Positions 45,418 through 50,071 of a DNA stretch of 64,000 nucleotides are shown here, one piece after another (position 1 is the stretch's first letter; each line of letters starts with the position of its first letter). The notes beneath the pieces were generated by a model. It was not told the origin of the DNA and made no database searches. It saw only the letters and a program-made list of their open reading frames with translations. The DNA is taken from the NCBI RefSeq assembly GCF_001747085.1, contig NZ_MDJD01000049.1:1-64000 (forward strand), in the 5' to 3' direction. The DNA comes from Flavivirga aquatica (GTDB lineage Bacteria; Bacteroidota; Bacteroidia; Flavobacteriales; Flavobacteriaceae). A program made the translations under genes and the position numbers.

Positions 45418-45447
45418 AAAAGTCAAGTTAAAAACTTGACTTTTTTT
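45418..45447 (+). terminator. Rho-independent terminator
   Basis: AAAGTCAAGTT (45419-45429) pairs with AACTTGACTTT (45433-45443) around a 3-nt loop, with a T-run. It would end the three-gene cassette, though 230 bp after its last stop. Confidence 0.7.
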
Positions 45448-45596
45448 ATGCGCTTAAATAACATAATTTACGTTTATATAAATCATAAAGATTTGTTATT
45501 AAAATAATTAAAGTCTTGTTAAGTTTTCTTAAAAAGAAAACAGAAAGTTAAAAAAGTATTTTATTAGAGGAGTTTTAAATAAAAAATATTTTTATA

Positions 45597-45625
45597 TGCA
45601 ACCATTGTTTTTTTGTGTTGTCTAT
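45597..45625 (+). promoter_or_regulatory. Predicted ECF-sigma promoter of the TonB-receptor operon
   Basis: TGCAACCA (45597-45604), 15 nt, then GTCTAT (45620-45625). The same two boxes with the same spacing precede the ECF sigma gene (48916-48944). The match extends to ATGCAACCAT and TGTCTAT in both. The start codon is 40 bp downstream. Confidence 0.7.
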
Positions 45626-45664
45626 GAGAATAGAATCAATCAATTATAAAACGAACAAATCAAA

Positions 45665-48040
45665 ATGAAGAACATTTTATTAGGCATATGTCTATTATTC
45701 AGTACACTACTAATAGCTCAAAATAGCTACAGTATTAGAGGTACAGTTAAAGATTCCGAAAATGGAGAAACATTATTTGGAGCCACAGTGTTTTTAAAAG
45801 GAACAACAAATGGAGCAGTAACCAACGAATACGGTTTTTTCTCGCTCACAGCTAAAGAAGCTACTTATACCGTAGTTATTTCATATTTAGGGTATAAAGA
45901 AATCTCTAAAGAAGTTCTTTTAAATAAAGATACAGTAATAAATTTTGAAATAGAAGAACTCTCAGAATCCTTAGACGAAATTGTTATTACAGCCGAAGAA
46001 ACAGAAAGAATAAGCATTAAGAAACCCCAAATGAGTGTTTCTAAATTAAACGCATCAACAATTAAACAAATACCAGCAGTTCTAGGAGAAGTAGATGTTA
46101 TTAAGTCTATCCAATTACTACCAGGAGTTACTAATAATGGAGAAGGCTCAGCCGGTTTTAATGTTAGAGGAGGAGCAGTAGACCAAAACCTAGTTTTACT
46201 AGATGAAGCTATAATATATAATACCTCACATTTTTTTGGTTTCTTTTCGGTATTTAATAACGATGCTATTAAAAATGTTAAATTATACAAAGGCGATATT
46301 CCAGCTAAATTTGGTGGAAGAGTTTCTTCAGTTTTAGACGTGCATCAAAAAGATGGAAATAGTAAAAAATTCGCACTAACAGGAGGCGTTGGTTTAATAT
46401 CTAGCAGATTAACAGCAGAAGCACCTTTGTTTAAAGATAAAGGATCTTTTTTAGTCGCAGGACGTTCATCTTATGCTCATTTACTAATGAAAGGAATAAA
46501 AGAACTTAAAGACGATAAACTATCTTTCTATGATTTAAACCTTAAAACCAATTATAAAATAAATGAAAATAACCGTGTTTATTTATCAGGTTATTTTGGA
46601 AGGGACATATTTAATATCTCAAAAATTATTGAGAACAGTTACGGTAATGCCTCAGGGAATTTGAGATGGAATCATGTTTTTAATGATAAGTTATTTTCTA
46701 ATTTATCTCTAATTTATAGCAAGTACGATTATCAAATTGTATTAAATTTCATAGAATTAGATTGGATTGCAGATATTAAAAATTATAATTTAAAATACGA
46801 TTTTGGATACTATGTAAACGATAAGTTAAAATTAGATTTTGGAGCTAGCGGCATTTTATACAACCTAAACCCAGGAGAAGTAAAACCAACATCTAATGAC
46901 TCTCCAATTAACTATTTAAAATTAGAACAAAAAAGAGCTTTTGAAAGTGGATTATACATAAGTGCAGAACACCAATTAACAGATAAGTTAACAGCACAAT
47001 ACGGTTTAAGATATAGTAGATTTAATAGGTTAGGAGGACAAAACATGACTAATTACGTGAATAATCAACCCGTAGTTTACAATAGCGAATTAGGTATTTA
47101 TGAAGAAGGAGAAGAATTAGGAGAAGCATTTTTTGAAAAGAATGAAAGTATAAAAACCTTTGATAATTTTGAACCAAGGTTAGGACTTTCATACCAATTA
47201 AATACATCATCATCAATAAAAGCAAGTTATACAAAATCATCACAATACCTGCATTTATTATCCAATACATCCTCGGTAACACCATTAGACGTTTGGACGC
47301 CAAGTGGAAAATATATAAAACCACAACTATCAAACCAATACGCATTAGGATACTATAAAAACTTTAAAAATAAAGCATATTCTATGGAGTTAGAAACCTA
47401 CTTTAAAACAGTAGATAATAGAATAGATTATATAGACGGCTCTAATTTAATAGGAACCAATACCATTGAAACCGAAATATTAAATGGAGAAGCAAGAGCC
47501 TACGGATTAGAGTTTTTATTACGAAAAAATACAGGAAAATTTACAGGTTGGTTTGCTTACACACTATCAAAATCTGAACAAAGAACATTAGGAGGCAATG
47601 CAGGAGGTTTAGGAATTAATGATGGAAATTGGTATAATACAGCTCATGATAGAACCCACGATTTTTCCATTACAGGCGCCTATAAATTAAACGAGAAATG
47701 GAATTTAAGTGCTAATTTAGTATATCAAACAGGTAGACCAGTTACCTATCCAAATGGACAGTACGAATATGAAGGTCTATCAATAGCTAGTTATTCAGAC
47801 AGAAACGAAAGTAGACTACCAGCATACCATAGATTAGATTTTTCGGCAACTTACAACCCTACTAAAAATAAAGACAGACGTTGGCAAGGAGAATGGGTAT
47901 TTGGTGTTTATAATGCCTATGCTCGTAAAAATGCAGCATCAATTACATTTACTCAAAATAATGATACAGGGCAAAATGAAGCAAGCAGACTATCTATTTT
48001 TGGTATCATTCCTTCAATAACTTATAACTTTAAATTTTAA
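45665..48040 (+). CDS. TonB-dependent receptor with carboxypeptidase-like N-terminal domain
   Basis: A 791-residue outer-membrane receptor that imports a ligand using energy from TonB. The signal peptide (ending LIAQ) is followed by a CarboxypepD_reg-like domain (about 22-105; SIRGTVKDSENGETLFGATVFLKG), a plug domain (about 110-240; PAVLGEVDVIKSIQLLPGV, GFNVRGGAVDQNLVLLDEA) and a barrel ending in Phe. The downstream DUF4249 lipoprotein starts 4 bp later. Together they form a pair common in Bacteroidota; the ligand is unknown. It is preceded by the predicted ECF-type promoter. Confidence 0.92.
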   Translation: MKNILLGICLLFSTLLIAQNSYSIRGTVKDSENGETLFGATVFLKGTTNGAVTNEYGFFSLTAKEATYTVVISYLGYKEISKEVLLNKDTVINFEIEELSESLDEIVITAEETERISIKKPQMSVSKLNASTIKQIPAVLGEVDVIKSIQLLPGVTNNGEGSAGFNVRGGAVDQNLVLLDEAIIYNTSHFFGFFSVFNNDAIKNVKLYKGDIPAKFGGRVSSVLDVHQKDGNSKKFALTGGVGLISSRLTAEAPLFKDKGSFLVAGRSSYAHLLMKGIKELKDDKLSFYDLNLKTNYKINENNRVYLSGYFGRDIFNISKIIENSYGNASGNLRWNHVFNDKLFSNLSLIYSKYDYQIVLNFIELDWIADIKNYNLKYDFGYYVNDKLKLDFGASGILYNLNPGEVKPTSNDSPINYLKLEQKRAFESGLYISAEHQLTDKLTAQYGLRYSRFNRLGGQNMTNYVNNQPVVYNSELGIYEEGEELGEAFFEKNESIKTFDNFEPRLGLSYQLNTSSSIKASYTKSSQYLHLLSNTSSVTPLDVWTPSGKYIKPQLSNQYALGYYKNFKNKAYSMELETYFKTVDNRIDYIDGSNLIGTNTIETEILNGEARAYGLEFLLRKNTGKFTGWFAYTLSKSEQRTLGGNAGGLGINDGNWYNTAHDRTHDFSITGAYKLNEKWNLSANLVYQTGRPVTYPNGQYEYEGLSIASYSDRNESRLPAYHRLDFSATYNPTKNKDRRWQGEWVFGVYNAYARKNAASITFTQNNDTGQNEASRLSIFGIIPSITYNFKF

Positions 48041-48044
48041 AACC

Positions 48045-48890
48045 ATGCGATTATATATAAAATCTCTTTTATTAATAGTTTTAACAATTATAACAGCCTG
48101 CGAAGATGTTATCGATGTTAATGTACCAGAAGCAGAACCAAGACTCGTTATAGAGGCTTCTCTAGATTGGCAAAAAGGTACAGCAGGAAATAATCAAACC
48201 ATTAAATTAAGTACATCAACACCATATTTTAATACTACGGTAAATAACACAGTAACAGGAGCCTCAGTTAAAGTTACAAACGACGCAACTAATGCCGAAT
48301 ACATTTTTGTAGACCAAAATGACGGAACATATAATATAACAGATTTTGTTCCAGTACTTAACGATAGTTACACCCTAGAAGTTATCTATAACAGCGAAAC
48401 ATATAAAGCAAAAGAAACATTAATGCCCGTTTCTGAAATAAAAAGAGTTACACAATCCTTAGAAGGCGCTTTTGATGATGAAGTTTTAGATGTTACCATT
48501 TTTTGGGATGATCCCGTAGATGAAGAAAACTATTATTTTATTAATTTTTATGAAGAAGGAGACCTGTTTCCTTTCTTAGAAGAGGTTTCTGATGAATTTA
48601 CAAATGGAAATGAAATGGATGAGTTTTTTGAAAAAGAAAGAGACGAAGATGACGGTCAAGAAGAATTTAATCCAGGAGATAAAGTTTCTTTTACTTTATA
48701 CGGAATCTCAGAACGTTACTATAATTACCTTCAAATTTTAATAGAACAATACGATAGTGGAGGAGATCCTTTTAGTTCTGTAGCAGCCGAAATAAAAGGA
48801 AACTGTATTAATGAAACAACTCCAGATAATTATGCCTTTGGATATTTTAGAGCCTCTGAAGTTGATACCATTAATTACACATTTCAATAA
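48045..48890 (+). CDS. DUF4249 lipoprotein
   Basis: This 281-residue protein has a lipobox (TIITAC, Cys 19) and the DUF4249 start CEDVIDVNVPEAEPRLVIEASLDWQ. Beta-rich modules continue through VTNDATNAEYIFVDQ, SYTLEVIYN and WDDPVDEENYYFINFYE. DUF4249 proteins are typically encoded next to TonB receptors and may bind the ligand on the surface, which I infer here from linkage (4 bp gap). Confidence 0.88.
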   Translation: MRLYIKSLLLIVLTIITACEDVIDVNVPEAEPRLVIEASLDWQKGTAGNNQTIKLSTSTPYFNTTVNNTVTGASVKVTNDATNAEYIFVDQNDGTYNITDFVPVLNDSYTLEVIYNSETYKAKETLMPVSEIKRVTQSLEGAFDDEVLDVTIFWDDPVDEENYYFINFYEEGDLFPFLEEVSDEFTNGNEMDEFFEKERDEDDGQEEFNPGDKVSFTLYGISERYYNYLQILIEQYDSGGDPFSSVAAEIKGNCINETTPDNYAFGYFRASEVDTINYTFQ

Positions 48891-48915
48891 TTAAGTAAAT
48901 ATTTTTTACAAAAGA

Positions 48916-48944
48916 TGCAACCATAAATTTTTTTAACTGTCTAT
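48916..48944 (+). promoter_or_regulatory. Predicted autoregulatory ECF-sigma promoter
   Basis: TGCAACCA (48916-48923), 15 nt, then GTCTAT (48939-48944), identical in boxes and spacing to the site before the TonB receptor. It fits autoregulation by the sigma factor encoded 46 bp downstream. Confidence 0.7.
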
Positions 48945-49528: not shown

Positions 49529-50071
49529 ATGGATGAATTAGAAAAATATATAGTACATCATAGAGATAAGTTCGATGATCGTAAAATGGATGAGTCAGAT
49601 AAACTTAACCTTTGGAGTCATATTGCTGGAGAATTATCAGAACCTCCTATAAAAGTAATTCCTTTATGGAGAAAATCAATATTTAGAGTAGCAGCTAGTA
49701 TAGTTATTTTATTGGGTTGTACATTTTCTTTCTTTATGATTAATGGGCAAAATTTAGAAAACCAGATAGTTAATGAAGAACTTTCAGACATTGACAATCA
49801 TTATAGATTACTTGTAAATAATCAAATAGAGCTTATAAAAAAACATTCAAATCTATCTAAAGAAGATCAAGCCGATTTTCTCCTTTTAATAGATGATTTA
49901 GATGAAGAATATCAAAAATTAAAAGAAGACCTTAAGCAAGGTATAAACAACAAAAAAATTGTTGAAGCTATAATCAATAATTATAGGAAAAAAATAAAAT
50001 TAATGGAAGATTTATTAGAACGATCATATCCAACTAAAAATAATTTTGAAGATGAAGCATTCATTTTGTAA
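49529..50071 (+). CDS. Anti-sigma-factor-like membrane protein
   Basis: An N-terminal cytoplasmic segment (MDELEKYIVHHRDKFDD; about 1-45) precedes one membrane helix (about 50-70; FRVAASIVILLGCTFSFFMI) and a helical extracytoplasmic region. Position and layout suggest an anti-sigma factor that holds the ECF sigma at the membrane. ATG 49529 is preferred; TTG 49520 gives an MKR extension and overlaps the sigma stop. The end overlaps the next gene. Confidence 0.75.
   Translation: MDELEKYIVHHRDKFDDRKMDESDKLNLWSHIAGELSEPPIKVIPLWRKSIFRVAASIVILLGCTFSFFMINGQNLENQIVNEELSDIDNHYRLLVNNQIELIKKHSNLSKEDQADFLLLIDDLDEEYQKLKEDLKQGINNKKIVEAIINNYRKKIKLMEDLLERSYPTKNNFEDEAFIL

Follow-up and report, generated by a model that had tools for sequence, protein, structure and literature searches.

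The window, by which we mean the whole 64,000-nt stretch of Flavivirga aquatica DNA that was analyzed, contains two neighboring predicted operons on the forward strand (Table 1). Operon 1 encodes a TonB-dependent receptor and a DUF4249 protein, and operon 2 encodes an ECF sigma factor, a presumed anti-sigma factor, an exported Toastrack-like protein (Toastrack being the Pfam name for DUF4097) and a small predicted outer-membrane protein (OMP). Each operon is preceded by a candidate ECF-type promoter.

Table 1. Features of the two operons in the window, and loci of a micropeptide found in relatives
Feature	Position	Strand	Description
Terminator-like hairpin	45418..45444	.	Perfect 12 bp with a T-rich flank; separates the TonB operon from the genes before it
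Candidate ECF promoter 1	45597..45625	+	-35 TGCAACCAT at 45597-45605, 13 nt, -10 TGTCTAT at 45619-45625
TonB-dependent receptor, 791 aa	45665..48040	+	N-terminal CarbopepD_reg_2, plug, barrel
DUF4249 protein, 281 aa	48045..48890	+	PF14054; signal peptide, lipobox-like TAC, predicted lipoprotein
Candidate ECF promoter 2	48916..48944	+	-35 TGCAACCAT at 48916-48924, 13 nt, -10 TGTCTAT at 48938-48944
ECF sigma factor, 177 aa	48990..49523	+	GTG start; regions 2 and 4 (Pfam)
Presumed anti-sigma factor, 183 aa	49520..50071	+	Overlaps the sigma gene; one TM helix at about 53-74
Exported beta-solenoid protein of Toastrack (DUF4097-like) type, 362 aa	50052..51140	+	Overlaps the anti-sigma gene
Small OMP, predicted beta-barrel, 221 aa	51154..51819	+	14 nt after the Toastrack gene
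Micropeptide, relative	L260 595-777
Micropeptide, relative	L268 ~572-778	-
Micropeptide, relative	L286 615-779
Micropeptide, relative	L113 4447-4590

The gene labels given in a preliminary description of this DNA to the TonB receptor, the DUF4249 protein and the ECF sigma factor hold by Pfam. The receptor matches PF00593 and PF13715, and Pfam detected only CarbopepD_reg domains, the plug and the barrel, with no STN signaling domain. Its score against the SusC subfamily TIGR04056 is 57.7 bits (cut-off 368) and its partner is a DUF4249 protein rather than SusD, which places the pair outside the SusC/SusD systems. A DUF4249 domain lies beside a TonB receptor both in the window and in the orthologous loci, a pairing that was already reported (PMC11003636). 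The hairpin upstream of the receptor gene was listed on the reverse strand, and T-rich sequence follows it on the forward strand too; it suggests that operon 1 is transcribed as a unit of its own, with the number of such hairpin sites being not above chance.

The sigma factor carries regions 2 and 4 only, scores above the cut-off of TIGR02937 and matches solved ECF sigma factors in the PDB (SigW, 4.5e-27; RpoE, 2.8e-20), which together identify it as an ECF (sigma-70 group 4) factor. The presumed anti-sigma gene adjoins the sigma gene in orthologous loci as well; it was listed with a TTG start, and an ATG at 49529 is a better fit to the orthologs. Its sequence, combined with a model of modest confidence (all helical, mean pLDDT 73, helices before and after the TM helix), points to an N-in, single-TM topology with a predicted cytosolic N-terminal segment of about 50 aa and a periplasmic helical part. 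The protein belongs to no Pfam or NCBIfam family (39 orthologs were searched with Pfam), the known class I anti-sigma domain (ASDI) was absent from its N-terminal segment among Pfam (39 members), NCBIfam and PDB profile matches, and PDB searches by sequence and by fold returned nothing significant. At its C-terminus (window 50036-50071) there is a conserved aromatic-x-Leu tail, usually Y-x-L and in the window F-I-L. Since the next gene begins within the tail's coding sequence, this overlap, rather than a protease or PDZ signal, may account for the conservation.

The labels of the last two genes stood in part. The DUF4097 assignment appears right by the fold class of the model; the window protein itself has no Pfam match, and 1 of 26 orthologs matches Toastrack (7.5e-7). 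The model (mean pLDDT 88) was matched, with low TM-scores, to solved putative adhesins of Bacteroidales (E 4e-5 to 1e-3) and to a putative adhesin of Clostridium (E 1e-8). For the window protein, the OMP label has weak support; among its orthologs, 3 of 18 match OMP_b-brl. In many relatives, an ORF of about 240 aa repeatedly follows the OMP gene (L093 9934-10662, L094 12255-12977, L096 10200-10922 and others); it is not at the corresponding position in the window, and the one member tested had no NCBIfam match.

ECF factors usually recognize a -35 element with an AAC core and a -10 element with GTC, and they frequently activate their own genes. The preliminary description had claimed that one such motif, with exactly the same spacing, precedes both operons and has no other copy in the window, and our searches confirmed both points. 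The sequence ATGCAACCAT occurs on the forward strand at 45596-45605 and 48915-48924, each time followed 13 nt later by TGTCTAT. Written as TGCAACCA-N15-GTCTAT, the motif has two copies in the window and the 4.64 Mb genome, at 45597 and 48916. The first ends 40 nt upstream of the TonB gene's start codon, and the second ends 46 nt upstream of that of the sigma gene. A third exact copy was absent from the window, and 100 dinucleotide shuffles of it yielded none. When up to 3 mismatches were allowed, the window contained 34 matches compared to 29.6 expected, a chance number against which the two exact sites stand out.

The whole-genome scan that the preliminary description had proposed recovered the two operons alone, free of random matches. 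TGCAACC-N16-GTCTA has two sites in the entire 4.64 Mb genome, compared to about 0.16 expected from base composition, and its reversed control has zero. Many genome matches with two mismatches were rejected as chance, because the reversed control yields more of them. A looser full consensus adds a single genome site (C43:40123-40151, L122 6124; TGCAACT-N15-TGTCTAT), located directly behind a tRNA gene, with a 58-aa ORF that has no known relatives following 157 nt further on; this site is possibly an extra regulon member or possibly chance. A sigma-70 promoter scan found only a chance number of promoters, as expected for Bacteroidota.

We then compared orthologous loci. Of 300 genomes in the family, about 40 contained strong matches to the anti-sigma protein, and two collections with overlapping species were assembled: collection 1 with 40 fetched loci plus the window (41 in total) and collection 2 with 80 loci. 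Upstream regions were scored for TGCAAC(C/T)-N15-TGTC(T/A)NT, with a relaxed consensus added in collection 2. The sigma gene carries the motif upstream, on the sense strand, in 41 of 41 loci of collection 1 (with an identical 16-nt spacer in 40 of these 41 upstream regions) and in 77 (strict) or 80 (relaxed) of the 80 loci of collection 2. The TonB/DUF4249 operon carries it before all 22 true orthologs in collection 1, from which a 247-aa TonB fragment in L135 was excluded as a paralog, and in 37 (strict) or 44 (relaxed) of 52 cases in collection 2, where the misses stem in part from wrongly assigned start codons or from spacers of 17 nt.

In many loci a separate copy of the motif precedes the OMP gene (31/41 in collection 1; 47 strict and 51 relaxed of 80 in collection 2). 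The window's OMP gene has none, and the motif-less OMP genes include all of the window's clade, where this gene closely trails the Toastrack gene. The regulon is predicted to be tiny, and in relatives slightly larger than the preliminary description had supposed. Among 463 other nearby ORFs only one has the motif. Extra matches in the relatives L117, L118 and L121 were inside genes and were rejected. A further site (L116 5843, genome G086; TGCAACC-N16-GTCTA, with AAGTCTA as its -10) lies 72 nt before a 560-aa exported ORF, and may be chance because its -10 element lacks the invariant TG.

Altogether, the motif, its spacing and its orientation are kept before the same genes in more than 100 loci from many genera of one family, though relatedness among the genomes and the overlap of the two collections mean that these loci do not amount to independent trials. 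Conservation falls sharply beyond the two boxes, except for a T-rich stretch upstream of the -35 element, and motif positions that were not used in finding the motif are also nearly invariant. As conserved sequence does not by itself establish a promoter, the repeat could in principle be a transcription factor's binding site or a conserved leader element. We consider this reading very improbable: the motif is asymmetric, always on the sense strand and about 55-90 nt before start codons with a fixed spacing; it combines an AAC core at -35 with a GTC core at -10; and intergenic regions between divergent genes contain two motifs, one for each direction.

The placement of the TonB operon varies: some genomes have it upstream on the same strand, others have it divergently oriented, and in many it is unlinked. 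Unlinked or distant TonB operons with the motif were found in G017, G146, G108, G223, G247, G018, G129, G153, G230, G185 and G032. In G241, G249 and G019, recovered with upstream windows of 700 nt (a fixed 220-nt window gave false negatives), the motif lies 255-293 nt upstream of the TonB operon, with a small ORF recognized between motif and receptor in G241 and G249, and in G227 it is a one-base variant. Because unlinked and distant operons retain the motif, the inheritance of a single DNA block cannot explain its conservation. The same data bear on whether the two window copies, which are less than 3.4 kb apart, arose by chance coincidence or by a recent, functionless local duplication. The probability of this is practically negligible, as the expected number per genome is about 0.16, the spacer and flanks of the two copies are not alike, and conservation across genera, even with the genes unlinked, already refutes it.

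In several relatives, a conserved micropeptide of about 45-65 aa with the core NPFLGFGWxT is encoded downstream of the ECF motif and ahead of the TonB/DUF4249 genes (Table 1), and in G247 it stands alone behind a motif copy. It has no Pfam match and was not seen in the window.

A natural test of the tie between sigma factor and promoter comes from genomes that lack a close sigma ortholog. TonB/DUF4249 operons have the motif in 14 of 16 cases in sigma-bearing genomes (including two adjacent cases, G120 and G001), compared to 1 of 20 in genomes without a close sigma ortholog, where the receptors are 66-79% identical and the best sigma match is at most 48% identical. At the genome level, 23 of 40 sigma-bearing genomes contain an exact core motif, compared to 3 of 40 others. 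There are real exceptions in both directions: G140 has the motif before its TonB gene with no recognizable sigma ortholog, and G021 and G144 have the sigma factor with no motif before their best TonB/DUF4249 match. Together with the conservation across loci, the contrast between genomes with and without the sigma factor supports, as far as comparative genomics can, the preliminary prediction that the window's sigma factor drives both operons.

An alternative is that the motif is read by another ECF sigma factor, or shared by several with overlapping specificities, so that the window's sigma factor is one input among others. The genome has 26 sigma-70-family genes above the cut-off, about 25 besides the window's own, and overlapping ECF regulons have been suggested in F. 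psychrophilum (PMC9723704); G140, mentioned above, would also fit. The closest paralog, 46% identical, belongs to a paralogous ECF system (C34:2240-4885, L123 2240-4885) with anti-sigma-like (192 aa) and Toastrack-like (485 aa) genes, and its promoter, TGCAACA-N16-CGTCTT, differs by only a few bases and is present too before the paralog's relative in G140. Even so, among the 26 sigma genes the motif precedes only that of the window, it does so in all examined orthologs, and it is nearly missing from sigma-less genomes despite their other ECF genes, including ones that are 41-48% identical. We therefore regard shared or foreign recognition as unlikely. Comparison of the two promoters suggests that the systems may be kept apart in part by the base following TGCAAC and by the initial base of the -10 element. 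As far as the sequences go, the promoter pair is real, unique to the window's sigma factor in this genome and largely tied to the presence of that factor.

We next considered whether the TonB receptor could sense a ligand and signal to the anti-sigma factor, as in FecI/FecR-type surface signaling. An ECF sigma factor, a presumed anti-sigma factor and a TonB receptor are indeed neighbors in the window. The preliminary description had proposed that FecR-type sensing is lacking, and this proved correct as far as domains are concerned: a FecR domain was found in 0 of 39 anti-sigma orthologs and no signaling domain was detected in the receptor, so that the receptor looks like an output and not a sensor. 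As it is also often encoded elsewhere, FecR-type signaling is quite improbable here. With high confidence, we instead favor an autoregulated regulon that comprises the two operons and is dedicated to this ECF sigma factor, with the receptor as its output. Because dozens of related marine bacteria keep the promoter before the same genes, even when these are apart, the sigma factor very probably activates its own gene together with those for uptake.

We propose the following mechanism. The sigma factor would be held at the inner membrane by its single-TM neighbor, the presumed anti-sigma factor, until a periplasmic signal is read by the helical part of that protein and the sigma factor is released. 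We infer that the small OMP and the Toastrack protein may act on the anti-sigma factor or on the release of the sigma factor, by analogy with the gene order of sigmaE-RseA-RseB and not by homology. The freed sigma factor would recognize the promoter and transcribe its own operon as well as the TonB receptor/DUF4249 operon, whose induction could provide more outer-membrane uptake or remodeling capacity; the induced anti-sigma factor would then end the response. More broadly, and with somewhat less than even confidence, we suggest that marine flavobacteria share, across the family, an ECF module that has not been described before. In it, the Toastrack protein would work with anti-sigma factors of a new family, whose periplasmic sensor is helical, the TonB/DUF4249 importer would be a pure output, the regulon would be very small, and some lineages would add to it only the NPFLGFGWxT micropeptide under the same promoter.

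Flavobacterial ECF regulons are mostly unmapped, and here a sigma factor, its promoter and a complete predicted target set are defined by sequence across many genera. Experiments can thus start from a precisely defined promoter, and what the TonB/DUF4249 pair does becomes more accessible to study. The analysis also points to an anti-sigma family that domain libraries do not recognize. We found no earlier description of the motif, the regulon or a link of DUF4249 with sigma factors in the literature searched, which was largely outside the subscription journals.

The sigmaE-RseA-RseB system of E. coli combines a sigma factor, a single-TM anti-sigma factor and a periplasmic accessory protein; it is autoregulated and its outputs include outer-membrane proteins. 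The system described here would share its gene order, autoregulation and outer-membrane outputs. However, its anti-sigma factor and accessory protein have no detectable similarity to RseA and RseB (no matches to the RseA and RseB domains among the anti-sigma orthologs or the Toastrack-like proteins), and it is predicted to control two operons, compared to the dozens of genes in the sigmaE regulon. Similar to the FecI/FecR TonB-coupled systems that are common in Bacteroidota, an ECF sigma factor adjoins and would control a TonB receptor operon, but here without a detectable FecR or STN domain and with the receptor as the probable output.

The Dma anti-sigma factors of thetaiotaomicron (PMC13088901) are likewise non-standard membrane proteins that pair with a Bacteroidota ECF sigma factor and affect the outer membrane. 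They span both membranes, with a C-terminal barrel after a long tether (PMC13088901), whereas the 183-aa protein modeled here is all helical with one TM helix, and the OMP is encoded by a separate gene. Class I anti-sigma domains have been found near only 6% of Bacteroidetes ECF factors (PMC7406223). In F. psychrophilum, start-site mapping assigned only one ECF-type motif for seven ECF sigma factors and left most ECF regulons unassigned (PMC9723704). That motif, SM6, mapped by transcription starts, is also a flavobacterial ECF-type promoter; it has a CGT -10 box and is linked to T9SS genes, while the present motif has TGTCTAT as its -10 and a TonB/DUF4249 target. The BT2172/BT2173 pair similarly consists of a TonB transporter encoded with a DUF4249 protein, and PMC11003636 reports no ECF link for it, unlike the present case. 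Our system would be of a known kind, the autoregulated ECF regulons, and is distinguished among them by its small predicted size, its unrecognized anti-sigma factor and the TonB receptor as its likely output.
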